Origin: Acidobacteriaceae bacterium
Lineage (GTDB): Bacteria > Acidobacteriota > Terriglobia > Bryobacterales > Bryobacteraceae
Assembly (NCBI GenBank): GCA_019233755.1
Contig: JAFAMD010000015.1
Location: 1 to 64,000 of the forward strand
Length of the DNA: 64,000 nt
Direction: 5' to 3'
The notes below the pieces were generated by a model. The model made no database searches and had not been told where the DNA came from. It saw nothing but the letters and a program-made list of their open reading frames with translations. Positions 37,888 through 64,000 of this stretch are shown piece by piece; within the stretch, counting starts at the first letter, position 1, and each line of letters opens with the position of its first letter. A program made the position numbers and the translations under genes.

Positions 37888-37943
37888 TGGTTCGGTTCAT
37901 GCCTATCCTAGCTGTTGAGCCAAAACGGCATGCGCCCTGCCCG

Positions 37944-39206: not shown

Positions 39207-39255
39207 GAAGCTCAAATCGCAGTACTTTCACTCGCAGATATTAAACTGAACCATC

Positions 39256-40236: not shown

Positions 40237-40279
40237 CAAAAAATAGCCTTGAAAGCAACACGTGCAAAACTTGAATAGA

Positions 40280-41995: not shown

Positions 41996-42012
41996 CGAGA
42001 CGAGAGGGAACC

Positions 42013-42717: not shown

Positions 42718-42735
42718 AACAGGGCCGCGTATTCT

Positions 42736-43842: not shown

Positions 43843-43917
43843 TCGGCCTCCGCGTACCAGCCTACTGAAAATGAATGAGGTTGCTTTTTGTCAGCGGCTA
43901 AGACGCGCAGGCTCGTC

Positions 43918-44076: not shown

Positions 44077-44128
44077 GGAAATCTCCTCGGTATGGACGCG
44101 CCGGACCGGCTAACGCTGACCCGGTAAA

Positions 44129-44953: not shown

Positions 44954-45157
44954 CACAACACCGCGTAAAAGGAGACGAGAAAACGCGCTTTTCCGTCACG
45001 CTGGTTCTGCCCTTCGAGCGGATGCAGGATCCGGTTCTCTTGCAGACGATGCTGCTGGGGAGGCCGCTGGATCTGGTAGGCTTCGGCTGCACATGCAAGA
45101 TCCGGCTGCTATTTTCGTGAATAGAGCCTGCGGTTCCTTGCCGGCTGCACCACTGCA

Positions 45158-48100: not shown

Positions 48101-48400
48101 CCGAATGTTCAGCACGAAGTTACGGAGGATGACATCCATGCCCTGACCGATCTTCACTCGCATATTGAAGGCCTGGCCGGCGAGATGGCAGATGCTTTCG
48201 ATCAGCGGCCCACTCCCATGTTCCGCGAAGAGATGGAAAAATATGGCAAACAACTCGATGAGCAGCTTGCCGCATTCAATCGTCTGTTGAAAACCGACGT
48301 TGCTGCCTACAACAAGGCGGCATATGGCGCCGGAGCTCCAACGGTCTTCGCCGGCACGCCGATCACCACGGGGCAGGTAGTAGGCGTACAGGGAAAATAG
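45158..48400 (+). CDS. Secreted VPS10/BNR-type beta-propeller protein
   Basis: The 1080-residue protein has a signal peptide (1 to about 24) and a propeller built from Asp-box repeats of the SxDxGxTW kind (SSDAGESW, TSDGGKTW, TTDGGETW, TMDGGKTW, TSDYGRTW, SADAGGHW), spread over about residues 60-750. A short Ig-like strand region and a helical, likely coiled-coil, C-terminus follow (about 900-1040). Acidobacteria often label these glycosyl hydrolase or sortilin-like; sialidase-type catalytic Arg/Tyr residues are not evident, so a binding role is more likely. Its last codons are partly duplicated near 49532. Confidence 0.88.
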   Translation: MRNTVLTLLVSIVLAAQLAAAAFGETTANKPAEPDDNDVFHNLHFRNLGPAAAGGRVTAVTGVPGDPNIYYVGAAAGGVYKTDNGGITWKAIFEHEVTASIGSIALALSNPNFVWVGTGEANIRNDVMDGAGVYFSSDAGESWKFMGLRDAGQISRVLVDPKNPENVFVGALGHAWGPNSERGVFRTSDGGKTWKKVLYVDDVTGVADLAMQPGNPEVLYAAMWHVRRYPWTLEDGGETSGLYRTTDGGETWKKLTEGLPKGPLGRMAIAVAPSNPNHLYALVTTKDGAVLYQSTDMGNHWNEVSNNHALDVRPFYFSRLAVSPVDEDRLYFLSFQLMESDDGGKTAHVADHGVHPDHHAIWIDPHDSDRMIQGNDGGAFLTTNDGKSWRFLDSLPIEQFYQIATDSETPYHLCGGLQDNSAWCGPSTNQARSGITNADWFAVLGGDGEYSVPAPSNPDIIYSDAQNGYIERLDKKTHLSHFVRPYLPSVEGASPADLKYRFNWTSPIAVSATDPNEVYLGANVVFKTMDGGKTWNAISGDLTRNDKSKQVIAGGPVNHDISGAETYGTILALALAPTDPNVIWVGTDDGCVQVTRNGGKQWTRVDIDISGAPQWARVYQIGVSPFEAGTAFVAFDAHELDDRHAYVYKTSDYGRTWQKITDGLPDSPVFVVRADPNQRGFLVLGNDQGIWYSADAGGHWKQLKANFPTAPVFDLKFVKESRDLVVATHGRGAFIFDNLRPIEEMTATAQASDFHLFSASDGFEMLHWDGDEGNPVAYSAPNAPRGATVDYLLKAKLEPSDEQKQRHETPVKITVTDREGHLIATHYGPSNAGVNRFVWDLRYSGIRRLESTISPEPPEPGEPEESRFFTTGPRVLPGEYTIEVSVNGQTQKTTTRVYADPNLHLSAEDLRAQMEAALTLRREVAALNEMIERIDGMQHQIADFKKDASRDPAMRDQYAPLLQQANALDDRLKAAKAAVLNPNVQHEVTEDDIHALTDLHSHIEGLAGEMADAFDQRPTPMFREEMEKYGKQLDEQLAAFNRLLKTDVAAYNKAAYGAGAPTVFAGTPITTGQVVGVQGK

Positions 48401-48410
48401 CGTTCGGTCC
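48380..48410 (+). repeat. Direct repeat, copy 1 (end of the VPS10-like gene)
   Basis: A 31-base segment starting GTAGGCGTACAGG covers the last seven codons of the VPS10-like gene and the 10 bases after. It matches the segment at 49532 in 29 of 31 positions. Together they bracket the next gene. Confidence 0.75.
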
Positions 48411-48426
48411 GTTTTGGTTGGGCTTG

Positions 48427-49275
48427 ATGAAAACATTGGCTGACGATAAATTCTCACTACCTTCACGGGTAAGTTCGGGAGTGCCCTACTGTCGCAGTGC
48501 CGCTTTCATCGGCTTCCTCCTTGCAAGCACCGCCTGGGCGCAAGCCGGCCCGGGTAATGAAGTTTGGGACCGGCTTCTTCAGGATGCATACGCGGACCAT
48601 GTGAAGCATCTTCGCGATGTGCTCCCCGAGCATTCAGCGCTGCCGCCAACGGCGGACCTTTCCAAACCGCAGACGGATCCCCGCGAGGCGGGCCGACTTT
48701 GGGAGGATCGGTTCACAGGCAGCATGGGAGTCAGGGAGCACATCGATCCCGGACTACGAGTGCCTTCGGAAGCGACCTCCATCTCTCTCACAACAACGGA
48801 GTATGCAACTCCGGGCTGGGCTCTGCCCGTACATGAATGCGATGCAATCCTCGTGGGTGTTCCGACAGCGGGTTCAGTTCACATCTCATACAACCAACGT
48901 TTTGTTTATTCCACCTTTTTCGTCAGAGTCGAAAAGGTTCTGAAGGCGAAGAACAAGAACGAATTTCGGGAAGGCAATCAAATCATCACTGCCGAACTGG
49001 GAGGGACTGTTCGTTACCCGTCCGGTCACGAGGCAACGTTCATCCTGGCGGGGAGAGGATTCATCGAGACAGGGAAGCAATATTTTCTGTTTGTCTGGAA
49101 ACCAATCCGATCCGATAAGACCTACATGACGGCCGAAGCCTATGTTATCGAGGAGGGCAAGGTGTTTCCCGTGAATCTCGATTTTAACGAATCGTGGTAC
49201 GAAAAAGGAGTGTCGCTTCCCGATTTCAGAGCCAAGCTAAAGGCCGCTCTGGAAGAAGACACAAACGCCAACTGA
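48427..49275 (+). CDS. Exported hypothetical protein
   Basis: I do not recognise the family. The 282-residue product has an N-terminal hydrophobic segment near residues 25-39 (SAAFIGFLLASTAWAQA), a signal peptide with a long polar front, so a later start is possible. The mature part is alpha-beta with LPVHECDAILVGVPTAGSVHIS, YSTFFVRVEKVLKAKN and HEATFILAGRGFIETGKQYFLFVW, a pattern of long amphipathic strands. No catalytic motif is visible. It lies between two 31-base direct repeats, so it may have been inserted after the VPS10-like gene. Confidence 0.7.
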   Translation: MKTLADDKFSLPSRVSSGVPYCRSAAFIGFLLASTAWAQAGPGNEVWDRLLQDAYADHVKHLRDVLPEHSALPPTADLSKPQTDPREAGRLWEDRFTGSMGVREHIDPGLRVPSEATSISLTTTEYATPGWALPVHECDAILVGVPTAGSVHISYNQRFVYSTFFVRVEKVLKAKNKNEFREGNQIITAELGGTVRYPSGHEATFILAGRGFIETGKQYFLFVWKPIRSDKTYMTAEAYVIEEGKVFPVNLDFNESWYEKGVSLPDFRAKLKAALEEDTNAN

Positions 49276-49531
49276 CGGGATACAGGGCTGAGGCCAAGCA
49301 TCGGGTGGGAGCATCGAGGGGAAACAAAACCGAAAACCGCCGCTAGATAGATCCGTGTGGCCGGACACACTCAGGCCTGCTCAAAGACGCACACCAAGTG
49401 TTGCGGCGTCGAATCCGCTTCGCGCTTCGATTAGCCGACCGCTCGACAGTAAGACACCGACTCGTTGCCCGGCTGCTTTTTCCGCTCCGGTTCTGCGGCC
49501 GCCAACCCCGCTGTGGCCCACTGGCCGGGCG
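49276..49531. other. Non-coding gap before the direct repeat
   Basis: No gene is supported in these 256 bases. A short open frame here ends inside the repeat with a peptide ending VGVQVK, which mimics the end of the VPS10-like protein (VGVQGK). The region thus looks like decayed 3'-end sequence rather than a functional gene. Confidence 0.4.
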
Positions 49532-49562
49532 GTAGGCGTACAGGTAAAATAGCGTCCGGTCC
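49532..49562 (+). repeat. Direct repeat, copy 2
   Basis: This 31-base copy of the VPS10-like gene's 3' end has two substitutions relative to the copy at 48380. It ends 8 bases before the first PadR-type palindrome. Confidence 0.75.
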
Positions 49563-49569
49563 CATCGCA

Positions 49570-49585
49570 GTCTACGGGTGTAGAC
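49570..49585. promoter_or_regulatory. PadR-type operator, distal palindrome
   Basis: GTCTAC-GGGT-GTAGAC is a perfect 16-base inverted repeat. Its arm GTAGA recurs in the palindrome at 49602, 17 bases further on. The two are the likely binding sites of the PadR protein encoded immediately downstream. Confidence 0.6.
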
Positions 49586-49601
49586 TTTCTATAGGCTAGC
49601 A

Positions 49602-49616
49602 TGTAGAATGTCTACA
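49602..49616. promoter_or_regulatory. PadR-type operator over the padR start
   Basis: TGTAGA-ATG-TCTACA is a perfect inverted repeat centred on the first possible padR start codon. Binding here would block ribosome or polymerase access, fitting autorepression, as is common for PadR genes. Confidence 0.6.
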
Positions 49617-49979
49617 CACCGAATGCCTTCTGAAAAATATCAAAACCGTATCGAGCTTCTCCAGGGCACGCTCGACATGCTGATCCTGCAAACGCTGCAA
49701 TGGGGACCGCAGCATGGGTATGGAATTGCGAACGCGATTCGCTGCAATTCCGGAGACTTGCTCCGTGTAGAGACCGGTTCGCTTTATCCCGCCCTGCACC
49801 GGCTGGAAAAGCAAGGATGGCTGAAGTCCGAGTGGAAGCAGACAGAGGCCGGGCAGCGGGCAAAGTTTTATCGAGTAACGCCTGCAGGTAAGAAACAACT
49901 TGTTTCGGAACGGGATCGCTGGGCGCAGTTGGTCGGCGCGATCGCCGGCGTGCTGAATCCGGCAACAAGCGAGGAGTGA
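49608..49979 (+). CDS. PadR family transcriptional regulator
   Basis: The 123-residue protein is a winged-helix PadR: LLQGTLDMLILQTLQWGPQHGYGIA, then RVETGSLYPALHRLEKQGWLKSEW and KFYRVTPAGKKQL, ending in a dimerisation helix. In acidobacteria such genes control the ADOP permease beside them, which follows by 3 bases. The start could also be an ATG five codons later (MPSEKYQ), the usual family beginning; neither has a good ribosome site. Confidence 0.93.
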   Translation: MSTHRMPSEKYQNRIELLQGTLDMLILQTLQWGPQHGYGIANAIRCNSGDLLRVETGSLYPALHRLEKQGWLKSEWKQTEAGQRAKFYRVTPAGKKQLVSERDRWAQLVGAIAGVLNPATSEE

Positions 49980-49982
49980 GGT

Positions 49983-52703
49983 ATGCCTTTCTGGCCCCAG
50001 CGCAAGCGCAACCGTCGCGAGCGGGATTTTGACGAGGAGATCAACTGCCATTTGAGAATGGCCGTTCGCGACCGAATGGAACGCGGCGAATCCATTCAGG
50101 ATGCGCGAGCCGGAGCCCGGCAGGAATTCGGCAACGTGGGTTTGATCAAGGATGTGACGCGTGAAATCTGGGGTTGGGGTTCCGTTGAGCGCCTGCTGCA
50201 AGACGTCCGCTATGCGGGTCGACTTTTACGGAAGAGCCCTGGCTTTGCAGCCGTCGCGATACTCTCGATCGCTTTGGGAGTTGGCGCGAATACCGCGATT
50301 TTTAGCTTGATTGACGCAGTGCTGCTGAAATCGCTGCCGGTCCGGAATCCCAACGAACTGGCGGCAGTGGGCGATCCTTCTCGTACGGGCGGCGTGTCCA
50401 GCGGTGGCGGTCGGGTGGACATGTTCTCGTATCCGTTCTTTTTGCGCTTTAAGGCGCAGAATCAGGCATTCAGCGACGTCTATGCGACGGGACGCTCGGA
50501 ACATCTCGACGTCCTCCTGCCGAACGGAACGGCTGCCACGAGCAATGCCGGCCCCAGCGCCCGATTCGTGACCGGCAATTATTTCTCCGTCCTGGGTGTG
50601 CCGGCCATCCTCGGCCGGCCGTTCACTGAGGAGGAAGTGCGTGTGCCCGGAACGGCGCCGGCTGTCGTGATCAGCTTCGGGTACTGGGAGCGGCAGTTCG
50701 GGCGCGACCCCAATGTGATTGGCCAGAAGCTGATTGTGAACGGCTCGAAATTCACCGTCATCGGAGTAACCCCGCCTGACTTCTCGGGCGATATCGTTGG
50801 ACGTCCGACCGACATCTGGTTTCCGATTACGATGCAGGCGCAGGCGAATCCGGGTCACGATTACCTCAAACAGGCAGGCGTGAGCTGGCTTTTGATTATG
50901 GGCCGGCTAAAACCAGGCGTCCCGCTTGCGCAGGCGAGCGCTGAAACGCAGGTGCTTGGGAGGCAGTTTTTCGCGGAGCTCAACAAGAACGATTCAACTG
51001 CCGAGGAACTCCAGGCGCTGCTCAAGAAGAAGATCGAGGTCACCCCTGGAGCGAAGGGTTTCTCGCGGCTGCGGCATGATTTTTCCCGGCCACTTTTGAC
51101 GTTGATGTGCATTGTGGGCGTGGTTTTGCTGATCTGCTGTGCAAACGTCGCGAACCTGCAATTAGCGCGAGCCGCCAGCCGGGGACGCGAAATGGGGCTG
51201 CGGCTTGCCGTCGGTGCAGGGACCATGCGGCTGGTTCGTCAACTCCTGACGGAAAGCCTGCTGCTTTCGATTGCCGGAGGTGTGGTCGGGCTTTTCTTTG
51301 CGTTCTGGGGATGCCGGTTGCTGTTGCAGCTTGTGTCGGCAGACAATCACGTATCACTTGACGTGCATCTCGACGCTGCAATTCTTCTGTTTACGATCGC
51401 GACGGCCGTGCTGGCGGGATTATTGTTTGGCTTTGCTCCCGCTTTGCAGACCAGGCGGCTCGATCTGGTCTCCAGCTTGAAGGAGAGCAAATCCGGGCAG
51501 TTCCAGGGATTCGCACCGCGCTTCGGAAGGGCACTGATAGTTTGTCAAATTGTTTTTTCCCTGTTACTGCTGGTGGGGGCCGGATTGTTCATCCGCACGC
51601 TGCAGAATCTGGAGAGAGTGGATGTGGGCTACACGCGGACAGGGCTCGTCGTCGCCCGGGTCGACCCTATCAGTGGCGGGTATGCCGACAAGGATGTGAA
51701 TGCGCTCATAAGGCGGCTACTCGGTAAGCTTGAAACGTTGCCTGGAGTTGAATCTGTCAGTGTCTCCGAAAACGGGCTCTTCAGCGGCACCTACTCCTCA
51801 TCCAATATCGATGTCGAAGGCTACGTTCCGCATACTCTGGCGGACAAGTCGAATGATTCGGACCGCGTCGGGCCGCACTATTTCGAAACAGTGGGTACAC
51901 CCGTCATCGTGGGGCGCGGCATTGAATCGCAGGACGCAGAGAATGGTGCCAAAGTCGCAGTCATCAATGAGAAGATGGCGCGGTTCTACTTCCCCAACGA
52001 AAATCCGGTGGGCCGGCATCTCTTCGACGGAGAAGGCGCAAAGAGATTCGCGATTACGATCGTGGGCGTTGTTGGTGATGCGAAGCAGAGTCAATTACGG
52101 CTGCCCGCTCCGCGACGATACTACACACCAATACAGCAGCACAGCCCTGACGACCCGGTGGCAATTTTGAATTTCGAAATTCGGACTCGTGGATTGCCGT
52201 CTTCTGCTGTTCTCAAAGAACTGCGCCCGGCAATTAAGAGCGTGAATGCTAACTTGCCGATTCTCGACACAAATACCGCTGACGATCTGATAGGCCAGGA
52301 TCTGGACCAGGAGAAACTCGTCGCCAGGCTCTCCGGTTTCTTCGGGTTACTGGCGCTGGCGCTTTCCGGAATCGGGCTGTATGGAGTAATGTCCTATCTC
52401 ACGGTCAGGCGGCGTACTGAGATTGGAATTCGCATGGCATTGGGCGCCAGGCGATGGACGGTCATCGGAATGGTGCTGCGCGAGACCTTCCGGCTGGTTG
52501 CCGCCGGCATCGCGATAGGCCTGGTGCTCTCGCAGGCGGCTGCCGCGATCCTCGAAAAGAGCTTGTTCGGGTTATCTGCCTTTGATCCGCTGACTGTAAC
52601 TCTTGCCGTTCTGGTCATTATTCTCGCCGCGGTAATGGCGACCTACCTTCCAGCCTGGCGAGCTTCGCGGATCGACCCGATGATTGCTTTGCGTTACGAA
52701 TAG
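49983..52703 (+). CDS. ADOP-type MacB-like ABC permease
   Basis: The 906-residue protein has an acidic N-terminal region (RRERDFDEEINCHLRMAVRDR), then a first membrane helix in SPGFAAVAILSIALGVGANTAIFSL, a MacB periplasmic core (about 120-350), three central helices, a second core and a FtsX-like C-terminal trio (ALSGIGLYGVMSYLTVRRRTEIGIRMALG). This duplicated architecture is the acidobacterial orphan permease. It lacks an ATPase domain and no ABC ATPase gene is adjacent. GGAG in the end of padR serves as its ribosome site. Role: probably efflux or signalling at the envelope. Confidence 0.93.
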   Translation: MPFWPQRKRNRRERDFDEEINCHLRMAVRDRMERGESIQDARAGARQEFGNVGLIKDVTREIWGWGSVERLLQDVRYAGRLLRKSPGFAAVAILSIALGVGANTAIFSLIDAVLLKSLPVRNPNELAAVGDPSRTGGVSSGGGRVDMFSYPFFLRFKAQNQAFSDVYATGRSEHLDVLLPNGTAATSNAGPSARFVTGNYFSVLGVPAILGRPFTEEEVRVPGTAPAVVISFGYWERQFGRDPNVIGQKLIVNGSKFTVIGVTPPDFSGDIVGRPTDIWFPITMQAQANPGHDYLKQAGVSWLLIMGRLKPGVPLAQASAETQVLGRQFFAELNKNDSTAEELQALLKKKIEVTPGAKGFSRLRHDFSRPLLTLMCIVGVVLLICCANVANLQLARAASRGREMGLRLAVGAGTMRLVRQLLTESLLLSIAGGVVGLFFAFWGCRLLLQLVSADNHVSLDVHLDAAILLFTIATAVLAGLLFGFAPALQTRRLDLVSSLKESKSGQFQGFAPRFGRALIVCQIVFSLLLLVGAGLFIRTLQNLERVDVGYTRTGLVVARVDPISGGYADKDVNALIRRLLGKLETLPGVESVSVSENGLFSGTYSSSNIDVEGYVPHTLADKSNDSDRVGPHYFETVGTPVIVGRGIESQDAENGAKVAVINEKMARFYFPNENPVGRHLFDGEGAKRFAITIVGVVGDAKQSQLRLPAPRRYYTPIQQHSPDDPVAILNFEIRTRGLPSSAVLKELRPAIKSVNANLPILDTNTADDLIGQDLDQEKLVARLSGFFGLLALALSGIGLYGVMSYLTVRRRTEIGIRMALGARRWTVIGMVLRETFRLVAAGIAIGLVLSQAAAAILEKSLFGLSAFDPLTVTLAVLVIILAAVMATYLPAWRASRIDPMIALRYE

Positions 52704-52728
52704 CGCCATTTCGATAAATAGAACGGCG

Positions 52729-53556
52729 TCAGATCCACCAGCGCTCCGGGTGTGAACCAGGCTCGGCCAGTTCGCCCAAAGCAGAGGCGTTTATGTGCTC
52801 CGGGCGGCAGACCCAGCATTGCCAGTCGCCTTGCTCGAGCATCTCCTCGAAGACGAAGCGCTTGGGCTGGTTCTCGCGGATAAAGCCGGATATGATGACG
52901 AGGCCGCCCGGCTTGGTCACTCGCTTCAGCTCCGAGGCGATGCGATCGAGCACCCGGGGCGTGATATTCGCGATGGTTACATCGGCCGTAGACTCGCAGA
53001 CTGCATCGGCGGAGCCGATGAACAGGGGAGCGCGCACATGTAAGCGTGCGACGGTGAGTGCGTCGAAGTCAATGTCGCACCCGACCATTTGGCCTGCTCC
53101 AAGAAGTCCCGCCGCGGCGAGCAGGATACCCGAGCCGCAGCCGACATCAAACACCGCATCGCCGTGCTTGAGATGCTTCTCGAGCGCCTGGATGCAGAGT
53201 TGCGTGGTCTCATGCCGTCCGGTTCCAAAGGCCGTGCTGGCATTGATTTCAAGCCGGAAGCGGCCTGCCGGAGCAGGGGTGGAGATCCACGGCGGCGCAA
53301 TGTAAAAGCGCTCTCCGGCAAGCACGGGTTCCCAGTCGTCCTGCTGGAAATGCGCCGGGTCAATCGGTTCTTCCGGCCGCACGGTGCTCGGGTTCCCGCC
53401 GAAAGCTGCGGCAATTTCGGCGGCGCTGACCGTGTCCTCGAAAAACGCCCGCAAGCCATCCGCTTCTTCGACAATTCCGCAGGTACCCCGTTCCCACAGG
53501 TCTGCGATTAGAGTATCTTTATCACCGGTGCCGGTTGAGAAAAAAATCGACCACAA
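52729..53556 (-). CDS. prmA: Ribosomal protein L11 methyltransferase
   Basis: The 275-residue SAM-dependent enzyme trimethylates ribosomal protein L11. FGTGRHETTQLCIQALEKHLKHGD leads into the SAM motif DVGCGSGILLAAAGLLGAG, followed by GCDIDFDALTV and an NITPRVLDRI that is the PrmA NxxP-like signature. The N-terminal L11-binding domain is shortened but present. The start is TTG, with GGAG just upstream. It converges with the ADOP gene, 25 bases apart. Confidence 0.92.
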   Translation of the reverse strand: MWSIFFSTGTGDKDTLIADLWERGTCGIVEEADGLRAFFEDTVSAAEIAAAFGGNPSTVRPEEPIDPAHFQQDDWEPVLAGERFYIAPPWISTPAPAGRFRLEINASTAFGTGRHETTQLCIQALEKHLKHGDAVFDVGCGSGILLAAAGLLGAGQMVGCDIDFDALTVARLHVRAPLFIGSADAVCESTADVTIANITPRVLDRIASELKRVTKPGGLVIISGFIRENQPKRFVFEEMLEQGDWQCWVCRPEHINASALGELAEPGSHPERWWI

Positions 53557-53586
53557 GACTCCAGTTTAGTGGCGAGCGGAGGGAAG

Positions 53587-54057
53587 ATGACGGAACAACT
53601 TGCAGAGGCCTGGCGGATCAACAATCGAATCAACCTGTTTCTGCTTGAAAACATCAGCGACCAGGGTATGAAGAGCACCACCTCTGCGCGCGGAGGCCGC
53701 GACGTCGCGCGGCAGTTCGCGCATATGCACAACAACCGTATTGAGTGGCTGGAAAATCACGGCCCACGCAACGCGGCGGAGGGTCTGCAGCAATTCGACG
53801 CCAAATACAGTCCTGGTAAGGAGGAGTTGAAGCGCGCCCTTGTGGCGTCAGGCGACGCTGTCGAACGCTGCCTGACCCAGGCGATGCAATCTGATGGGAA
53901 ATTGCGGGCCTGGAAGTGTGGTGTACTTGCGGCCTATGGCTACCACGTTTCGCATGAGAGCCACCACCGCGGCAGCATTCTGTTGACGCTGAAGCTGACC
54001 GGAAACAGGCTGGACCAGGCCGTCGCCTACGCCATCTGGGACTGGAATAACCGGTAA
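53587..54057 (+). CDS. DinB family protein
   Basis: The 156-residue four-helix bundle protein starts after GGAGGG (an upstream GTG is less likely). It keeps the DinB/YfiT-type metal histidines: FAHMHNNRIEWL in helix 2 and YHVSHESHHRGSILLTL in helix 4. Related proteins are thiol-dependent transferases, such as mycothiol- or bacillithiol-S-transferases, but the substrate here is unknown. It is divergent from prmA. Confidence 0.88.
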   Translation: MTEQLAEAWRINNRINLFLLENISDQGMKSTTSARGGRDVARQFAHMHNNRIEWLENHGPRNAAEGLQQFDAKYSPGKEELKRALVASGDAVERCLTQAMQSDGKLRAWKCGVLAAYGYHVSHESHHRGSILLTLKLTGNRLDQAVAYAIWDWNNR

Positions 54058-54137
54058 GCTCCAGCGCACGGGCTTTGGGATATACTCGGAACCCGGCGCC
54101 GGCGGAGGTTGCCGGCTGAACGCGGCCGGAGGTGATC

Positions 54138-56282
54138 GTGGTTTCTTACAAACGTGTTTTTCGTGGCATTTCGCACGGAATTGCGCTGGCTGGCTTGACC
54201 TTTTTCGGCTTTGGCTCGATCGTCCTGGCCGGCGCCGATCCTTCCGCTTACGTGCGAGTAAGTCAGGTCGGCTATGAAGCGGGCAACACTCCTTTTCGCG
54301 CCTATCTGATGTCGACGGACGTGGAGCCGGGCGCCACGTTCAGAGTAGTCAACTCCCACGGCAACGCAGTCTATTCAGCCGCGGCAGGCCCGCTCCTCGG
54401 TACCTGGAGCAACAGCAAGAGCTTGACGTACCAGGTTTATGCACTGGACTTCAATGCTCCCGAAGGCGACACCTACACAATCTCGGTTTCCGGCCCGGTG
54501 CCGACTACTTCTCCCCGATTTGCGGTTGGCCGTCCGGCTGTGCTTTACCCCGGGTTGCTTCTCAACACCAGGTTCTTTTATGAAAGCGAGCGCGACGGAC
54601 CGGACTACATTCGCAATGCATTGCGCACCGCGCCCGGGCATCTGAACGATGAGCAGGCCAAGGTTTACCTGACTCCGCCTCTGGATGACAACGACCTGAT
54701 TGCCACCTCTTCCGCGCCGCTTGCGGCGACCGGCGCAGTGATCGATGGCTCCGGCGGGTGGTGGGACGCGGGCGACTACATGAAGTATGTCGAGACCACC
54801 AGCTACACGGTTGCGCTTCAGGAGATAGGCATTCGGGATTTCCCAAACCAATTAGGACCAGGCGCGCCGCTGAATCCGCCTTCCCCGCCAGCTTCGATTT
54901 CTTACGCAGGGAACGCCGCGGGCTCCCCCTCCAGCTCAGACTTTACGAGCGAAGCTCAATTCGGCATCGAGTTCCTGATGAAAATGTGGGACGACAAATC
55001 GCGGACCCTTTACTATCAGGTGGGAAACAGCCAGGATTGGGTCAATTACTCCTTCTTGAGCGATTACGACATCTGGCGTCTGCCTCAGGCGGATGATGAC
55101 TGGGACGGTTGCAGCTCTGATGCGACCTACATTTGCCACCGGCCGGCATTTGTTGCGGGACCGGCCGGGTCAAAAATCAGCCCAAACCTGGCGGGCCGTC
55201 TCGCAGCGGACTTTGCGGTTTGCTATCAGCTCAATCGAGAGCGCGAGCCCGGTCTGGCGCACCAGTGCTTGCAAAATGCAGAAGACATCTTCGAACTCGG
55301 GGATACTTCGCTGGCGGACCCGGCTAATTCGGTCGGCGCCGGCACGTGCACATCCGGCTGCCTGCTGACGATCATTCCATTTGACGGCTACCCGGAAACT
55401 GTGTGGGACGACGATATGGAACTCGGCGCAGCCGAATTGTACTTCGCCCTGTGGTCCGCTCAGAAACGAGGCGACGTACCGGCCGGCCTGCCGCATAGCG
55501 ATCCAAGTTACTACCTCAAGCAAGCCGCGCAGTTCGCGCAGAACTATATCACCAGGATCTATAACACCGGCAATACCGATACGCTGAACCTCTATGACGT
55601 AAGCGGTCTGGCTCACTTCGAACTGTACCAGGCGCTCGCTCTTGCCGGAAGCCCGACCGGTCTGGCGGTTACACGGGCCGGCATTCGGGAGCAATTGCTC
55701 AAACAGGTGGGCGACGCAATCAGCCAGGCGAAAAACGATACCTGGGGCTTCGGCGATGCGTGGAACGCCGACACCACCTCGCACGGCGGAGGACTCTCCG
55801 TGATGGCGAGTGAGGCCTATTACCTGACACATGTTCACGAGTATGAGGTCTACTCGCAAAGATGGATGGCGAACGTCCTGGGCGCCAACGCGTGGGGATC
55901 TTCCTTTATCGTCGGCGATGGGTCGGCGACGTTTCCGAATTGCATCCAGCACCAGGTCGCGAACCTCGCAGGGGCATTGGATGGCACCTCAAACGGAACG
56001 CCGGTGCTGTGGGGCGCCGTTTCTGAAGGACCGGCGAGGGCCGCTACTTCAGGAATTGTCTCGGGCATGATTCTGTGTCCGGCAAACGGGGCCGATGCAT
56101 TCAAGATCTTCAATGGCAATAGCGGCGCGTACAACGCAGATAATGTTGCGGTGTACCAGGACAATATGCAGTCCTACAGTACAACTGAGCCTGCCATCGA
56201 CCTGACCGCCACCTCGTTTCTGATGTGGGCATGGCGGTTGGCTGGCGCTCCCGTTGAATGGTGGGAAGCACTAAGGCGTTGA
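54138..56282 (+). CDS. Glycoside hydrolase family 9 (endoglucanase-like)
   Basis: The secreted enzyme has a signal peptide (to about residue 32), an N-terminal CelD-type Ig domain (about 36-150; VRVSQVGYEAGNTPFRAYL) and a GH9 barrel. GGWWDAGDYMKYV near 205 carries the catalytic aspartates, and NVLGANAWGSSFIVG...FPNCIQHQ plus SEGPAR near the end resembles the family's His and Glu site regions. GH9 enzymes cut beta-1,4-glucans by inversion. I use the GTG placed after GGAGG, two codons inside the longest frame. The final 12 bases overlap the convergent oxyR. Confidence 0.9.
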   Translation: MVSYKRVFRGISHGIALAGLTFFGFGSIVLAGADPSAYVRVSQVGYEAGNTPFRAYLMSTDVEPGATFRVVNSHGNAVYSAAAGPLLGTWSNSKSLTYQVYALDFNAPEGDTYTISVSGPVPTTSPRFAVGRPAVLYPGLLLNTRFFYESERDGPDYIRNALRTAPGHLNDEQAKVYLTPPLDDNDLIATSSAPLAATGAVIDGSGGWWDAGDYMKYVETTSYTVALQEIGIRDFPNQLGPGAPLNPPSPPASISYAGNAAGSPSSSDFTSEAQFGIEFLMKMWDDKSRTLYYQVGNSQDWVNYSFLSDYDIWRLPQADDDWDGCSSDATYICHRPAFVAGPAGSKISPNLAGRLAADFAVCYQLNREREPGLAHQCLQNAEDIFELGDTSLADPANSVGAGTCTSGCLLTIIPFDGYPETVWDDDMELGAAELYFALWSAQKRGDVPAGLPHSDPSYYLKQAAQFAQNYITRIYNTGNTDTLNLYDVSGLAHFELYQALALAGSPTGLAVTRAGIREQLLKQVGDAISQAKNDTWGFGDAWNADTTSHGGGLSVMASEAYYLTHVHEYEVYSQRWMANVLGANAWGSSFIVGDGSATFPNCIQHQVANLAGALDGTSNGTPVLWGAVSEGPARAATSGIVSGMILCPANGADAFKIFNGNSGAYNADNVAVYQDNMQSYSTTEPAIDLTATSFLMWAWRLAGAPVEWWEALRR

Positions 56283-57161
56283 ACGCCAAGCGCGCGACGT
56301 TTCGCGGAGCCATTGAATGAAGGCTTTCTGCGCAGTGCCGGCGGCATGCCGCCTGACGCGCACATAGCCGATTCTGCGGTGGGCCTCTCGCTCCAACGGT
56401 AAGAACACGCAAGGCGCATCGGCGGTTACCGCCATATGCGGTACAAGCGACACGCCGAAGCCTGCGCCCACGAGCGGCAGAATGCTCGAGAACTGGTTTG
56501 TCTCGAAGATGGACACGAAGTTCGTTTGCGACCGGCTGCAAATGGTCAAAGCATTGTCTCGGAAACAATGCCCTTCTTTAAGCAGCAGCAAACGTTCGTC
56601 ATTGAGTGCCGGGAGACTGACTTGCCGTGCGGAGGCGAGACGATGTTTCTTGCAGACCGCGACGTAGATCGTTTCGCGAAACAGATCGCTGCAGACAAGA
56701 TCGGGATTATGCAGTGGCGGGCTGACCACAGCGAGGTCCAATTCGCCCGCCTGCAGCAGTTCGACCAGTTTCGGCGTGATCTCTTCTACCAGGCGGAGGT
56801 CGACGTCCGGGAACTTCTGCGCGAAATCGCCGATTTGCGGCGCCAGGAAGTACGGCGTAACGGTCGGGATGCATCCCACCGCCAGCCTGCCGGCCACGCC
56901 GCGCCGGAGCGATTCCACCGCCGTCTTCGCGTTGTTCAGTTGGCGCAGAATCTCGGTTGCCTGCGGAAGCAGGGCGCGTCCTGCTTCGGTTAACTGCACG
57001 CCGCGCCCGAGACGGTCAAATAGCTTCGCGCCGAGACTTTGTTCCAGGCGGGAGATCTGCTGGGAAAGCGACGGTTGTGCTACCCGTTCCTGCTCGGCCG
57101 CTTTCGTGAAACTTCGCGTCCGGGCGACTGCGCAGAAATAACGGAGCTGATGGATTTCCAC
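56271..57161 (-). CDS. oxyR: LysR family peroxide sensor OxyR
   Basis: The 296-residue protein has the LysR winged helix (MEIHQLRYFCAVARTRSFTKAAE, QPSLSQQISRLE) and a ligand-type regulatory domain. KEGHCFRDNALTIC places cysteines at 199 and 208, the same numbers and spacing as the redox pair of E. coli OxyR, and the surrounding text GHCxRDxA is the OxyR signature. It therefore senses hydrogen peroxide by a disulfide switch. It starts at GTG and is divergent from the catalase fragment, with an OxyR-like box in the 112-base gap. Confidence 0.93.
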   Translation of the reverse strand: MEIHQLRYFCAVARTRSFTKAAEQERVAQPSLSQQISRLEQSLGAKLFDRLGRGVQLTEAGRALLPQATEILRQLNNAKTAVESLRRGVAGRLAVGCIPTVTPYFLAPQIGDFAQKFPDVDLRLVEEITPKLVELLQAGELDLAVVSPPLHNPDLVCSDLFRETIYVAVCKKHRLASARQVSLPALNDERLLLLKEGHCFRDNALTICSRSQTNFVSIFETNQFSSILPLVGAGFGVSLVPHMAVTADAPCVFLPLEREAHRRIGYVRVRRHAAGTAQKAFIQWLRETSRAWRSTP

Positions 57162-57172
57162 GGTTCCTGCCT

Positions 57173-57209
57173 ATAGACAAATCCTATCGCAGCCATAAGG
57201 CTCTGACCC
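57173..57209. promoter_or_regulatory. OxyR-like binding site between oxyR and katA
   Basis: ATAG at 57173 and CTAT at 57184 are exact half-elements with the seven-base spacing of the OxyR consensus (ATAG-N7-CTAT-N7-ATAG-N7-CTAT). ATAA follows at 57195, again with seven-base spacing, but the fourth element reads ACCC. The site is in the only place it would be expected, upstream of both oxyR and the catalase start. Confidence 0.6.
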
Positions 57210-57273
57210 TAGGATCGGGCCTTCAGCCGGCATACATTCGAGGGAGGGAAGACCACAAAAGGAGACGCTTTTG

Positions 57274-57450
57274 ATGCCGACAGAAGAACCAGTACGCAAA
57301 CAGTGCCCGGTGATGACAACGAATTCGGGCCGTCCGGTTGGTGACAATCAAAACTCCGTCACGGTGGGCCCGCGGGGCCCGGTGCTGATGGAAGACTATC
57401 TACTTTTCGAAAAGATCGGCTGGAGCGGGAACGCCTCACCCATGGCATAA
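57274..57450 (+). pseudogene. katA: Catalase, N-terminal fragment (interrupted)
   Basis: A 58-codon frame starts at an ATG with AAGGAG upstream. Its residues [28 protein letters not shown] and LLFEKI are the first 48 residues of a heme catalase. From [10 protein letters not shown] the text no longer matches and a stop follows. The next catalase residues ([13 protein letters not shown]) occur at about 61801 on the same strand. The gene is therefore split by an insert at about 57418/61801, inside the arm before the catalytic His. Confidence 0.88.
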
Positions 57451-57576
57451 ACGCGCGACACTGCCACCTGGCGGCAACCACATTGCCGCGGTCGGCTTGG
57501 ACAGCAAGCGGCTGGTGCTCGATGATCGAGTTCCGGCGGGCGGGCGCGGCGCAATCCCAAGTAGAAGGAGAAGACA

Positions 57577-58587
57577 ATGAATTCTAAACTAAGCGCAGTT
57601 CTTGACATCACTCGTGGCGTGAAACCATCGCATTCGTTTGACGCCTTCGCAGCCCTGGCTTCCGACCAGCCGCTGACCTACGAACCCGTAGATGCGGGCG
57701 AGGTCGAAACGGCGGTGACTCACGAATCGGGCCATGCTGGCATGGTCAGGGGCGGATTCGACCTCTCGAATCAGGTCGCGGTCGTCACTGGCGGCGGCCG
57801 TGGAATCGGTCGCGAGATCGCTCTTGCACTTGCCGCCGCAGGGACATCGGTCGCCGTGACAGCACGTTCGGCCGATCAGGTTCAGACAACAGCCGACATG
57901 ATCACCGTCGCGGGTGGCCGTGCCATGGCTGTGCCCGTCGACGTGACGGACGAGACGGGTGTGCAACAAGCGATCGCCTCGATACAAGACAGCCTCGGAG
58001 CGGTGACGCTCCTGGTCAACAATGCCGGCGTGGGAGGACCGATTGGCCCGACCTGGGAGGTAAACGCCACGGAATGGTGGCGAACGATGGAAGTTAACCT
58101 TCGCGGCGTTCTTCTCTGGACGAATGCTGTACTGCCAGGCATGGTGGCACATCGTCGCGGACGAATCGTCAACATCGCCAGCAATGCAGGCGCGTATCGC
58201 TGGCCCAACGTATCCGGGTATTCAGTTTCTAAAACCGCAGTGATCAAGTTCACCGAAAACCTCGCGCTGGAGCTACGGAATAAGGGGATCGCGGTGTTTG
58301 CGGTTCATCCTGGTATTGTCGCCATAGGGTTAACGGAGTTGGCCCTAAATAACGAGTCTTCACCCGACTCTCCAGCCGGCAAAGTCGCAGCCTGGTTCCG
58401 TGAGGAAATCGCCGCAGGACGCGACCTTCCGCCGGAGCGCATCACCAGACTAGTCGTCGAACTCGCCAGCGGTCTTGGTGATGTTCTCAGTGGGCGGTAC
58501 ATAGACGCGCACGATGATCTGACGGAATTGCTGGCGCGCGCTGACCAGATCTTCGAAGGCGACCTGTACACGCTACGGGTCCGATGA
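57577..58587 (+). CDS. SDR oxidoreductase with unusual N-terminal extension
   Basis: The 336-residue protein has an SDR core from about residue 66: VTGGGRGIGREIALALAAAG, NNAGVGG, NIASNAG and the catalytic YSVSKTAVIKF, ending in a short polar tail. The first 60 residues are not SDR. DAFAALASDQPLTYEPVDAGEVETAVTHES recalls the N-terminus of NADP-dependent zinc alcohol dehydrogenases (YEP...GEVEIAVTHCG), but the zinc Cys is replaced. AGAAGGAG precedes the ATG. It is the first gene inside the katA insert, and the acyl-CoA ligase follows by 58 bases. Confidence 0.85.
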   Translation: MNSKLSAVLDITRGVKPSHSFDAFAALASDQPLTYEPVDAGEVETAVTHESGHAGMVRGGFDLSNQVAVVTGGGRGIGREIALALAAAGTSVAVTARSADQVQTTADMITVAGGRAMAVPVDVTDETGVQQAIASIQDSLGAVTLLVNNAGVGGPIGPTWEVNATEWWRTMEVNLRGVLLWTNAVLPGMVAHRRGRIVNIASNAGAYRWPNVSGYSVSKTAVIKFTENLALELRNKGIAVFAVHPGIVAIGLTELALNNESSPDSPAGKVAAWFREEIAAGRDLPPERITRLVVELASGLGDVLSGRYIDAHDDLTELLARADQIFEGDLYTLRVR

Positions 58588-58645
58588 TGTCGCGCGCCAG
58601 AAACACGGAATAGAAAGAAGCATTAGAAATTTCGAAGGAGAACAT

Positions 58646-60544
58646 ATGAACCAGGTTGAGCGCATCGCGATGACCAGCGCAACCGCACGTAGTGCAATCG
58701 AAGCCGGTGGGCTCGACCGATTGCTGCCCTCATGGTCAATTCATGGCGCATTGTCAGCAGCCGCAGCGTGTTCGCCCAATAAGGCCGCCATTCGGTTCCT
58801 TAGAACTGGTAAACCCGGCGAGGAAGCCGAGACTACCACCTATCACGAATTTTTAAACAGCATAGAACGGGCGGCAGGTCTTTTTCAAGAAGCTTCAGAT
58901 GGACCCGCCGTAGTGTCTGTGCTGGCTCCGCTGCTTCCGGAGGCGATCATCGCGATGTGGGGAGCCGCGATTGCCGGTGTATGCAATCCGATCAACCCAT
59001 TCCTTGAGACGCGGCATATAGCTTCGATCATGAACGCGGCACGGAGTACCGTGTTGGTGACGTGCACGGATGCAGAGGGGGCCGGCGCGTGGAACTGCGC
59101 GGAAGAATTGGTCGCCGCCGTCCCGACCCTCCGTAGAATGTTCGTCATCCATCGGCCGGCGAACCGCGCGCAAGCGGAAGATTTTACCAACGCGCTTCGG
59201 CTTCACTCCCGCCGGACCTTCGAATCCGCCGGCATGGACGATCCTAATCGAGTCTGCGCCTACTTCCATACGGGCGGCACGACGTCGGCGCCAAAGTTAG
59301 TGCAGCATACCCAACGCGGGCAACTGCTGAATGCGTGGATTAGCGCGTCGATGCTTGGACCGGAGCAAGATGAAATTATAGGACTGGGGATGCCAAATTT
59401 CCATGTGGCTGGCGCGATCATAATGAGCCTGCGCGCTCTGATCATGGGCCAAACTTTGCTGATCCTCACGTCAGGGGGATTTCGCAATCCTGAGGTGGTA
59501 GCGAATTTCTGGGAGATCGCGCGATCGAACCGGATCACCTCGGTCGCTGCGGTACCAACGTCGTATGCGGCGATCTCGGCGGCTAAAGGCGCCGCGTCGG
59601 ACGGGCATTGCATTCGCACGTTTTCCACGGGTGGTGGCGCAATGCCGCGCGATCTCGCCCGTGCCTTTGAGGAGCGGTTTGGCGTTGTTCTCAAGGAACT
59701 CTGGGGGATGACCGAATTCCAAGGAATCTTGTCGTCGAACCCGTATGGATTGACGCGTCCGCGAATTGGTTCCGTGGGTTTGCCGAATCCGTTTCACAAA
59801 GTGAAAGTTGTACTACTCGAGAACGGCCGCTATCAACGAGAATGCGCGAACGGGGAAAAGGGAACACTCGTCGTTTCCGGGCCATGCATGACGCCCGGTT
59901 ATTTGGGCATCGATCCAAGTGACGGCTTGCTTGTGCGAGATATGCCTGGCCAGGAGGGCTGGCTCAACACCGGCGACTTGGGCGCGTTAGACCCGGACGG
60001 CTATGTTTGGATTTATGGACGCGAGAAGGATGTGATCATTCGCGGTGGGCACAACCTGGACCCTGGAATGGTGGAGGAGGTATTGAATCGTCATCCCTCC
60101 GTTCAGGTCGCTGCCGTAGTAGGGCAACCTGACCCTATGAAAGGAGAACTTCCCATCGCCTACGTCCAGTTGAAGAACGAAGCGAAGGTCAGCGCGGAGG
60201 AGTTGCTCGCGCTGTGCGCGAAGGAGGTACCGGAGCGGGCCGCAGTGCCTGCCCAGGTGGTGATCCTTGACCAAATGCCCGTCACCGCCGTGGGTAAGAT
60301 CTTTAAGCCGCCACTTCGGCTGGACGCAATGGTGCGGGTAGCGCAGCAGACTGTGGCTTCGGTATTGGGTACGGGGTCGGGCGTTAAGGTGGAGGCCGTG
60401 GAAACCACAGCTCGCCCCACAATAATCCTTCGATTGCCGCTTGGACTCGCTACGGAGTCTTGCGAAAAAGCGCTTCAGCAGGCGTTTGCCGGCTATTTGT
60501 TCGAAACACGGATTGTTTTAGAGGAAACGGCTCAAGCAGCCTAA
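58646..60544 (+). CDS. Acyl-CoA synthetase / AMP-dependent ligase
   Basis: The 632-residue ANL-superfamily enzyme has the phosphate loop YFHTGGTTSAPKLVQH near 210, LKELWGMTEFQGIL (A5-type motif), GWLNTGDLGALDPDGYVWIYGREKDVIIRGG, and the C-terminal catalytic Lys in AVGKIFKPPL. It activates a carboxylic acid as acyl-AMP and then acyl-CoA. Chain specificity cannot be read; length and order fit medium- or long-chain or cyclic acid ligases. AAGGAG precedes the ATG. With the flanking SDRs it suggests a fatty-acid or cyclic-acid degradation route. Confidence 0.92.
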   Translation: MNQVERIAMTSATARSAIEAGGLDRLLPSWSIHGALSAAAACSPNKAAIRFLRTGKPGEEAETTTYHEFLNSIERAAGLFQEASDGPAVVSVLAPLLPEAIIAMWGAAIAGVCNPINPFLETRHIASIMNAARSTVLVTCTDAEGAGAWNCAEELVAAVPTLRRMFVIHRPANRAQAEDFTNALRLHSRRTFESAGMDDPNRVCAYFHTGGTTSAPKLVQHTQRGQLLNAWISASMLGPEQDEIIGLGMPNFHVAGAIIMSLRALIMGQTLLILTSGGFRNPEVVANFWEIARSNRITSVAAVPTSYAAISAAKGAASDGHCIRTFSTGGGAMPRDLARAFEERFGVVLKELWGMTEFQGILSSNPYGLTRPRIGSVGLPNPFHKVKVVLLENGRYQRECANGEKGTLVVSGPCMTPGYLGIDPSDGLLVRDMPGQEGWLNTGDLGALDPDGYVWIYGREKDVIIRGGHNLDPGMVEEVLNRHPSVQVAAVVGQPDPMKGELPIAYVQLKNEAKVSAEELLALCAKEVPERAAVPAQVVILDQMPVTAVGKIFKPPLRLDAMVRVAQQTVASVLGTGSGVKVEAVETTARPTIILRLPLGLATESCEKALQQAFAGYLFETRIVLEETAQAA

Positions 60545-60579
60545 CCGAGCGTGCTGTTCACGCGAAAGGAGGCTCGCAA

Positions 60580-60702
60580 ATGACGGGCAAAGTCGCAACA
60601 GCGCTGCAGTATGCGGCCGGGGCAGCGCTGGGACTCCTGATTGACATTGCTGTCGTTCTGGTTGTGCTGTACGGTACAACGCCAACTGGATGGGGTCACT
60701 AA
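60580..60702 (+). CDS. 40-residue membrane peptide
   Basis: A short frame starts 35 bases after the ligase stop, with a textbook AAAGGAGG 8 bases before its ATG. The product has a polar MTGKVATALQY start, one strong hydrophobic stretch (AAGAALGLLIDIAVVLVVLY) and the tail GTTPTGWGH. It is not a family I recognise. The strong ribosome site and operon position make translation likely; function is unknown. Confidence 0.6.
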   Translation: MTGKVATALQYAAGAALGLLIDIAVVLVVLYGTTPTGWGH

Positions 60703-60707
60703 ACGCA

Positions 60708-60943
60708 AAGTGTTCGAAAGTGCAAGTCGCCGCGGCGCGGAATTCGCTTCAACCCCGATTGTCTCGCTCACGCCGAGCGCAATGCAGGGGCACCGCGAGC
60801 GCGCCATTTCCGTGGGTTTCACCGGCTATAGCAGCGAGCCAATCCGCTTGGAGGTACTACGCAGAGAAGTGGAGCGCCTGCTTAATCTCGCGGGAGCACA
60901 TTCGGAAAAGTCGTTACCGCGCTTGCCTTTGTTTGACGGCTGA
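60708..60943 (+). pseudogene. Response-regulator receiver domain, C-terminal fragment
   Basis: The frame contains TPIVSLTPSAMQGHRERAISVG, then FTGYSSEPI and a closing helix LRREVERLL. This is the beta4-beta5 half of a CheY-like receiver (PIVALTAxAMxGDRERA, GYxxKPI), with the conserved Lys replaced by Glu and the phospho-Asp half absent. No start codon with a ribosome site is found at its head. It looks like a truncated remnant inside the cassette. Confidence 0.7.
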
Positions 60944-60975
60944 AACAGGTTGCCGCAATTGCAGAAGAGGAAGCG

Positions 60976-61749
60976 ATGTATCGATACAAAGATGGAAGAC
61001 TGAAAAACAAATGTGCTCTTGTGATCGGGGCAACGAGCGGAATCGGCCAAACTTGTGCCGAGATGTTTGCAGAGCTGGGTGCCCGCGTCATAGTGACCGG
61101 CCGTCGAGTGGTTGAAGGTGAAGCTGTGGCACGGAACATAGTTGCCGCGGGAGGGGATGCGGCTTTCCTGCAATGCGATGTGACCAAGCCAGAGCCGGTT
61201 GCAGAAACCGTCCGGCTGGCTGTCGACCGTCTGGGAAGGCTCGATATCCTGCTTAATAACGCTGGAGGCTCGAGCAGCGCCGACGGCCTCGTGACAACCG
61301 GCTCTCTAGACGAATTCTGGGAAAAAATGCGGGTTGATTGCTTCGGCACATTTCTCACCCTTCGCTTCGCTATTCCCGAGATGGTCAAGTCGGGAGGAGG
61401 ATCTGTCATCAACATGGTTTCGATAGCGGGTTTCGGGAACTTGACCGGCGGACGATCTGCGTATGCTTCCTCGAAGGCGGCCGTTATGAATTTGACGCGA
61501 AGCACAGCGCACGCTTTTGCAAAAGATCGAATTCGGGTCAACGCCATCGCGCCTGCTGGCGTTGGTACCGAGCGAATCAGGAAGATGTTGATGGATCGAC
61601 CGGAGGCCATCGCCGCCTTGGCGACTCAGCAGTTCGGTCTGATCGAACCCGAGGATATTGCGCACGCAGCAGTCTTCCTGGCATCGGACGAGTCTCGCAT
61701 GATCACCGGCCACGTACTTCCCGTGGATGCAGGGGCATTCGCTGATTGA
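60976..61749 (+). CDS. SDR family oxidoreductase
   Basis: The 257-residue classical SDR has [28 protein letters not shown], the catalytic Ser in NMVSIAG, and [13 protein letters not shown], with a C-terminal [13 protein letters not shown] typical of FabG-like enzymes. The residues after strand 2 (TGRR) favour NADP(H). AGAGGAAG precedes the ATG. It is the last gene of the cassette; the katA remainder starts about 50 bases after its stop. Confidence 0.92.
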
Positions 61750-61800
61750 TCAGAACGGCGCTGGCGAGTTTATTTACTGTCGTTTCCACCGGACCTTTGG

Positions 61801-63145
61801 CCGCCTTCAATCGCGAACGGATTCCGGAGCGCGTGGTGCACGCCAAGGGCGCCGGTGCATACGGGATGTTCACCGTCACGCAAGACATTACCAGGTACAC
61901 GACAGCCAAATTATTCAGCGAGATCGGCAAGCAGACCGAGGTGCTGGCCCGTTTCTCGACCGTAGCCGGAGAAAAAGGTTCAGCCGACACCGCGCGCGAT
62001 CCGCGCGGATTTGCCCTTAAGTTTTACACCGAAGAAGGCAATTGGGACATGGTGGGCAACAATACGCCCATCTTCTTCATACGCGACCCGCTGAAATTCA
62101 GTGATTTCTTCACTCCCAGAAGCGCGCGCCGCAGACCAACCTGAGGTCGCCTACCATGATGTGGGATTTCTGGTCGCTCTCGCCGGAGTCGCTGCATCAG
62201 GTCACAATTCTCTTCTCAGACCGCGGCATCCCGGATGGCTATCGCTTCATGAACGGCTATTCGAGCCATACTTACAGTCTGATTAACGCCAGCAATGAGC
62301 GCTTCTATGTGAAGTGGCATTTCAAGAGCATGCAGGGCATCAGAAACCTGAGCGTGGAGAGGGCCGATGAGCTCGCGGGCGTGGACAGCGACTATGCAAC
62401 TCGCGACCTGTTCGAAGCGATCGAGCGGAAGGAATGCCCGAAGTGGCGCGTTTGTGCGCAGATCATGCCGGAAGCGGACGCGGCGAGTTACAAAGTAAAT
62501 CCTTTCGACCTGACCAAGGTGTGGCCGCATAAGGACTACCCGCTCATCGAGGTCGGTGTGATGGAGCTGAACCGCAATCCGAAGAACTATTTTGCGGAGA
62601 TCGAGCAGGCTGCCTTCTCGCCGGTCAACACCGTCCCGGGCATGGGCTATTCGCCGGACAAGATGCTGCAGGGCCGCCTGGTCAGCTATCCGGACGCGCA
62701 TCGTTACCGGCTGGGAGTCAACTTCGAAGCGCTTCCGGTGAACCGCCCGAAGTGCCCGGTGCACAGCTACAACCGCGATGGCTCTATGCGCTTCGACGAT
62801 AACGGCGGCGATGCTCCCAACTATGAGCCGAACAGCTTCGGCGGTCCGGCTGAAGATCATCGCTACCGCGAGATGCGCTACACGGTTTCGGGTGAAATCG
62901 GCCGCTATGATCATCGCGAAGGCAACGACGTTTACACGCAGGCAGGCAACCTCTTCCGGTTGCTTAAGACGGACGAGAAGGCGCGCCTGATCAGGAACAT
63001 CGTCGGTGCGATGAAGACGGTTCCGGAACGCATCCAGCGGCTGCAGATCAGCCATTTTATGAAGGCTGATCCCGCCTATGGCCGCGGCGTTGCCGAGGGA
63101 CTCGGGCTCACCGTGGAAGAGCCTGATTTGGTAAGCGCGAAATAG
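61801..63145 (+). pseudogene. katA: Catalase, main fragment with an added frameshift
   Basis: From [22 protein letters not shown] the frame runs through the catalytic His and Asn ([11 protein letters not shown]). At 62108/62109 one base is missing, so FSDF continues in the wrong frame to a stop at 62144. One frame over, catalase text resumes ([14 protein letters not shown]) to a TAG at 63145, including the heme-tyrosine motif SYPDAHRYRLG. All active-site residues survive, so the decay is recent. Together with the 48 N-terminal codons the sum is about 495 residues, the normal small-subunit size. Confidence 0.88.
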
Positions 63146-63240: not shown

Positions 63241-64000
63241 TTGACGCGAAAATTGTCGTTCCTTCCTCGTGCTGCAGCCGTTATTGGCTTGTTTGTTCTG
63301 AATGGCACATTCCTCTTTGCGCAGAGCGCCAGACCCTACCGCATTACCGTTGACCTGACGGATGCACCGCGCAAATTCCTGCATGCGGAATTGAGCATAC
63401 CGGTACAGCCCGGCCCCCTCACGCTCGTCTATCCGCAGTGGATTCCGGGAGAGCACGCGTCCACCGGTCCTGTGAACAATTTCACAGGCATCACTTTCAC
63501 GGCGGACGGGCAGGTCATTCCGTGGCAGCGGGATGACGTCGACATGTACGACTTTCACTTGGACGTCCCCATGGGTGTGCGGACGCTTGACGCGAAGGTT
63601 GACTTTCTGGCGACCGCCGCGGCAACGGGCTTTTCCGCCGGCGCGTCCACCAGCGCGAACCTGGCAATTCTGAGTTGGAACGAATTCGTTCTGTATCCGG
63701 CAGGATCGGCAGCGGCAGCCGTGACCTTCGAGCCCTCGCTGAAGGTGCCTGAGGGCTGGAAATTCGGGACGGCTTTGACGCCAGTATCGAGTGAAGGCAA
63801 CGTTACTCGTTTTCAGCCGGTGCCCCTGGACATGCTGGTAGACTCGCCCGTTCTTGCCGGCAAGTTCTTCAAAGAAATTCCGCTGGCGCCGGAGGTGACG
63901 CCGAAGCATTACCTGGATGTCGCCGCCGACGGACCGGAAGACTTGAATCTCAGCGCCGAAGAAATATCAGCATTCAGTAATCTCGTCAGAGAGACCGGCG
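63241..64000 (+). CDS. M61-family peptidase, N-terminal part (cut by window end)
   Basis: The frame runs open to the window end. It has a signal peptide (FLPRAAAVIGLFVLNGTFLFAQS) and a beta-sandwich starting YRITVDLTDAPRKFLHAE, with VYPQWIPGEHASTGPVNNF, the hallmark of the M61 glycyl-aminopeptidase/PDZ family N-terminal domain. The zinc HExxH motif would lie beyond the window. TTG at 63241 or 63253 are the possible starts; an ATG at 63235 is out of frame. Confidence 0.8.
   Translation, partial: MTRKLSFLPRAAAVIGLFVLNGTFLFAQSARPYRITVDLTDAPRKFLHAELSIPVQPGPLTLVYPQWIPGEHASTGPVNNFTGITFTADGQVIPWQRDDVDMYDFHLDVPMGVRTLDAKVDFLATAAATGFSAGASTSANLAILSWNEFVLYPAGSAAAAVTFEPSLKVPEGWKFGTALTPVSSEGNVTRFQPVPLDMLVDSPVLAGKFFKEIPLAPEVTPKHYLDVAADGPEDLNLSAEEISAFSNLVRETG

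Follow-up and report, generated by a model that had tools for sequence, protein, structure and literature searches.

How did a set of metabolic genes with no visible means of transposition come to split a catalase gene? This is the question raised by the katA gene found towards the right-hand end of the window (the whole stretch of DNA analysed, 64,000 nucleotides long), where the following features are found.

56271..57161, minus strand: LysR-family regulator, OxyR-like, divergent from katA (Pfam LysR_substrate, HTH_1)
57173..57198, plus strand: candidate OxyR-like site, ATAG-N7-CTAT-N7-ATAA, between oxyR and katA
57274..57416, plus strand: 5' part of katA, codons 1-48 and two bases (Pfam Catalase; reference katA of G163 and G003)
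57417..61798, plus strand: inserted block, 4382 bp, +/- 1 bp (by comparison with G163 katA)
57577..58587, plus strand: short-chain dehydrogenase SDR1, with an N-terminal extension of ~60 aa (Pfam adh_short, E 6.6e-55)
58646..60544, plus strand: acyl-CoA synthetase, AMP-binding (Pfam AMP-binding, E 1.5e-51)
60580..60702, plus strand: hydrophobic ORF of 40 aa, no Pfam match; segment 97% identical in G004
60708..60961, plus strand: 254-bp segment absent from the G004 copy; its short receiver-like fragment stops at 60943
60976..61749, plus strand: SDR2 (Pfam adh_short_C2, E 2.4e-54)
61780..61798, plus strand: 19-bp stretch at the right end, no match in the G004 copy
61799..63145, plus strand: 3' part of katA, its length altered by one base near 62108-62116 (Pfam Catalase in two frames; alignment)
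63241..63999, plus strand: M61 peptidase, N-terminal part, continuing beyond the window end (Pfam Peptidase_M61_N, E 3.2e-33)

The interrupted gene and its uninterrupted relatives

In profile searches the Pfam Catalase domain is spread over three ORFs (57274-57450, 61746-62144 and 62156-63145). The first of these, 58 aa long with its stop at 57448-57450, corresponds to positions 1-34 of the profile (E 2.6e-6), the second to positions 33-145 and the third to positions 154-382, and katA is therefore cut just past codon 48. An earlier note on this DNA had proposed that the two halves lie on one strand and are in frame once joined; the Pfam matches and the comparison of katA loci bear this out, and the splitting of katA by an insertion is confirmed. 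The same note held that the catalytic residues are intact on both sides. Catalytic motifs are indeed present on either side in the alignment, but a frameshift had been overlooked: the one-base length change puts the second part of katA into two frames, and a full-length Catalase domain in a single frame is not found. As far as sequence can tell, the gene would thus be broken twice, by the insertion and by a frameshift near 62110 representing either decay or a sequence error. With its Catalase and Catalase-rel Pfam domains and its OxyR-like neighbour, the locus resembles the known arrangement of a monofunctional heme catalase beside a divergent oxyR, from which it differs in having katA split and frameshifted. 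The NCBIfam models for OxyR, CynR and GltC all match the LysR-family gene below their cut-offs.

A family-wide search with the katA part matched 29 of 237 genomes (that of the window included) at E values up to 1e-60, and 29 katA loci were fetched from the 28 other matching genomes. Exactly 6 nt (two codons) separate the stretches equivalent to the insert-flanking parts in 25 of these 29 loci. The gene also reads through in L116 and L128, though the short N-terminal query gave no match there; the sequences of L111 and L127 do not cover the insertion point and are hence not assessable. The nearest katA by nucleotide score, that of G163, reads K-M-A-A-F at the insertion point. The left flank in the window ends ...AAGAT and the right flank begins GGCCGCCTTC...; combined, they restore the G163 reading: no base is missing, a duplication would involve a single T at most, and the insertion falls within one codon of this reference gene. 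The ancestor of the window genome presumably read like G163 at this point.

In G003, katA is uninterrupted and has oxyR upstream, the adjoining protein being 71% identical to the OxyR-like regulator of the window. This whole katA beside oxyR, along with a second copy of the insert lying elsewhere (in G004, discussed below), upholds the view that a true insertion into katA took place. It had been suggested that sister genomes be searched for an intact katA with oxyR upstream and the M61 gene downstream; G003 provides the former neighbour and not the latter, and M61 was dropped as a joint mark, with oxyR, of the native locus, as the G003 gene has oxyR without M61 alongside. In the window, a GH9 gene, oxyR and katA with its block all lie between a gene for a PrmA-like methyltransferase (52729-53556) and M61. 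The PrmA-like gene adjoins M61 in three of the eight M61 loci fetched from the genus (L087, L092 and L093, from G010, G011 and G012), and none of these eight has a GH9 or OxyR match at E values up to 1e-20. It would seem that katA itself probably came there within an earlier insertion.

As for the contents of the insert, the five gene-like units previously described are confirmed as an SDR, an acyl-CoA ligase, a second SDR and two fragments. Neither the 40-aa ORF nor the receiver-like fragment has a Pfam match in the profile search, and 'receiver' is a putative label given by motif; segments from two other genera, in five genomes, resemble the fragment at 61-69% identity across 52-55 residues. 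The synthetase is PRK07529-like, with a score below the cut-off of that model (567 of 632 bits). Composition had been put forward as a way of telling the insert from its flanks, and in this it failed: GC shows no clear difference (0.567-0.598 in the three insert genes vs 0.54-0.62 in eleven others in the window), GC at third positions lies a little towards the low side (0.59-0.63 vs 0.59-0.76) and codon-usage distances overlap. With the insert so close to its flanks, composition was set aside as not decisive and could not settle the origin of the block; genome comparison did.

A second copy of the block and the sources of its genes

Among the 237 family genomes, the whole block was found only in the window genome (G000) and in G004, of the same genus, and was absent from the other 235, in wide searches that scored few first-look candidates per genome (2 to 4), such that weak copies may be missed. 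The copy in G004, on contig C649, is 92% identical to the window over 57418-60548, 97% over 60593-60707 and 96% over 60962-61779, and it sits at a different genomic place from the window copy, which is in katA. The flanks are far less alike: the four best G004 matches of window positions 37201-57200 are 75, 75, 70 and 75% identical, and the M61 genes of the two genomes 71-76%. This discrepancy (92-97% for the block vs 70-75% for the best flank matches) shows that the block was transferred horizontally. Either it moved between the two lineages later than their split, or a third lineage that shared the block contributed the G004 contig as contamination. The contig is short (13.4 kb) and the G004 genome about 7% contaminated, and the second copy may therefore belong in truth to another genome; under either reading of the contig, the block was horizontally transferred. 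The direction of transfer was presumably into the window genome.

The two copies are not collinear throughout. At one place ~416 bp in G004 stand against 44 in the window, and at another ~21 bp against the 254 bp of the 'receiver' piece. The last 19 bp of the insert are unmatched in G004, which limits how closely the donor unit can be delimited on the right. Eighteen bases of this 19-bp end (61781-61798) recur once, with one mismatch, elsewhere in the window's own genome (G000:C37:7565-7582), a recurrence that could be copied filler or chance; as a control, the reversed pattern also gave one match with up to two mismatches. Two methods were used to compute dN/dS between the copies. The synthetase gave 0.26-0.32 and SDR2 0.14-0.16, and both genes were therefore under selection after the copies parted. 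For the two parts of SDR1, which is frameshifted in G004, the range is 0.25-0.46.

Several features of the G004 contig may be recorded. In L037 (6247-7290, minus strand), a single ORF of 347 aa takes in both the small hydrophobic segment and SDR2, which share a frame there. A segment beside the right end of this copy (L037 5686-6201, G004:C649) recurs at 83-85% identity in contigs C648, C654 and C861 of G004, two of these recurrences stopping at 6200-6201, 16-17 bp from the block end; its ORF has, by eye, the look of the start of a glycosyltransferase, with no Pfam match. A repeat of up to ~280 bp is also present in three copies on the contig (L037 4086-4365, 11178-11458 and 12582-12770), two of which flank the block on either side.

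The block looks like a mosaic, its genes appearing from their nearest relatives to have been assembled from separate sources. Relatives of the three genes occur singly in other genomes, the window and G004 copies differ by the two internal blocks already described, and no genome beyond G004 was seen in the wide searches with all three block genes. Residues 62-336 of SDR1 have a 78% identical relative in G156, where it forms the C-terminal domain of an AMP-ligase/SDR fusion. For SDR2, relatives at 77-78% nucleotide identity were found in two of 398 other genomes of the class (G529 and G424, at E values up to 1e-15), the other block genes not lying alongside. The acyl-CoA synthetase has relatives at 59-63% in Acidocella and Acidisphaera, whereas 255 further genomes of the order yielded none at E values up to 1e-150. 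A conserved gene cluster residing elsewhere was considered and rejected, only single-gene relatives being found in G156, G529, G424, Acidocella and Acidisphaera. The G156 fusion of AMP-binding ligase and SDR, the nearest relative of SDR1, is 841 aa long (L066 7005-9530, G156:C750) and its gene lies near genes for a GMC oxidoreductase, a glycosyltransferase and a TPP enzyme.

How the block entered katA

The absence of visible transposition machinery, already pointed out in the earlier note, withstood closer inspection. Pfam searches of the insert, covering its five forward units and ten antisense ORFs of at least 60 aa, revealed no transposase and, with integron cassettes in mind, no integrase either. 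Rfam gave no match of any kind, and hence none to group II introns or other structured mobile RNAs, at E values up to 1 in 57100-62200. Terminal repeats were not found in an ungapped comparison of the 60-bp ends, the inverted score being reached by 86 of 500 shuffles and the direct one by 307 of 500, and any target site duplication is at most 1 bp relative to the G163 gene.

The best fit, to which we would give a probability of roughly 60%, is an illegitimate insertion of the end-joining type. A linear piece of foreign DNA bearing a small metabolic cluster (SDR, acyl-CoA synthetase, SDR) would have been joined into a break in katA by such recombination, with loss of the catalase as the outcome. 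Extended homology is absent at the junctions, in line with illegitimate insertion, and Ku is encoded in the window genome (E 3.9e-41); that the molecule was linear and that Ku-dependent end joining was the agent is what we infer. The lack of any base loss at katA counts against end joining, which often loses bases, and the capture of a linear fragment is proposed as the most economical account, arrived at through the absence of alternatives. Homology-facilitated illegitimate recombination in natural transformation also allows foreign DNA to enter with short or no border homology; unlike there, no anchoring homology is recognised here at either side. In insertional inactivation by IS elements or transposons, a gene is likewise split by acquired DNA, but the present insert is without transposase, terminal repeats or target duplication.

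Conventional NHEJ is reported in one study as enriched in Acidobacteria (P 0.05; PMC7719229), and in E. coli most non-mobile variable segments are ascribed to illegitimate recombination in another (PMC2884548). The small variable segments described in the latter resemble our case in being acquired DNA within genes, without a mobile or repeat element and attributed to illegitimate recombination. They differ in coming from a within-species survey in which short segments are stressed, where here a 4.4-kb multi-gene block inactivates a gene.

A rival that we judge unlikely is that the block has defined ends, as a remnant of a transposon or as a mobile element that is non-autonomous, and was moved in trans by a transposase or recombinase of a kind that makes no target duplication. 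Some types of element do make none, and the location of the G004 copy at another place would agree with such an element, as would a target whose bases were neither lost nor duplicated on insertion and a left border that coincides to the base with the start of G004 homology (inevitable, though, if the window flank is katA). Set against this are terminal repeats that do not rise above shuffles, the want of a transposase in the insert, the presence of one copy in its own genome, and the lack of further copies in the 235 other family genomes. Nor was a relative found when a viral collection was searched with the synthetase, and a plasmid search returned 10 records with short matches alone, covering at most 9% of the block.

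Selection for capture of the katA promoter, another improbable account, would give a reason for the persistence of the block: kept under the peroxide-regulated promoter, it would have stress drive a lipid or aromatic acid pathway and not catalase. The block and the katA stub share a strand, no terminator-like site was found on the plus strand of 57100-62000, and strong Shine-Dalgarno-like stretches precede SDR1 and the synthetase. The OxyR-like pattern ahead of the stub (ending in A or G) has a single occurrence on the two strands of the 64-kb window and lies upstream of katA in four of the 29 other loci (L101, L106, L107 and L108). When the sequence between oxyR and katA was shuffled 20000 times, the pattern, which had been written after the site was seen, never arose. 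Against promoter capture, besides this post hoc definition, the candidate does not match the fourth tetramer of the classical OxyR site. Seven loci have an oxyR start ahead of katA; the pattern is present in three of them and absent in four (L104, L105, L115 and L125). In addition, a promoter-like match within the insert (57498-57526) could serve SDR1 alone. It is on this evidence quite doubtful that a horizontally mobile metabolic block has taken the place of catalase at the peroxide-sensing katA promoter, such that OxyR would now drive an acyl-CoA synthetase and two dehydrogenases while the genome has lost the one catalase detected in it. If the OxyR-like site still works, this would be regulatory capture by accident of insertion, and it is directly testable.

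An assembly chimera, or a variant carried by only part of the population, is very improbable: the genome is a draft (71 contigs, 92.7% complete) and katA also has its one-base length change, but two false joins in frame at the same codon of one gene would be needed, an improbable coincidence, and the ~1 bp that the junctions share with the G004 and G163 sequences would be too little to mislead an assembler.

Age of the event and loss of catalase

The proposal that the event is recent finds support in the state of the catalase remnant. Of 204 alignment columns that do not vary among five relatives, the catalase of the window differs at 6, and in a leave-one-out control each relative departs from 5-17 of 203-215 such columns. 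The count covers five small-subunit relatives only; in a wider count, only the G007 enzyme among six larger-type katA loci passed the ORF filter. There is thus no excess of change at invariant columns as a sign of decay, and inactivation is recent when set against the time since the split from G003.

What befell katA is a real, recent and clean insertion of DNA that was acquired horizontally, an event of a known kind seen with unusual clarity, its mechanism being inferred. It shows, almost fresh, several genes entering a chromosome together with no mobile machinery of their own, and for comparison there are both intact katA genes and another copy of the block. A single step here links the gain of genes to the loss of an enzyme of detoxification.

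The window genome has no other KatE-type catalase match and no catalase-peroxidase, these being the two types searched. Catalase is patchy in the genus, with a strong match (E below 1e-50) in 5 of 16 other same-genus genomes, and its loss therefore seems to be tolerated.
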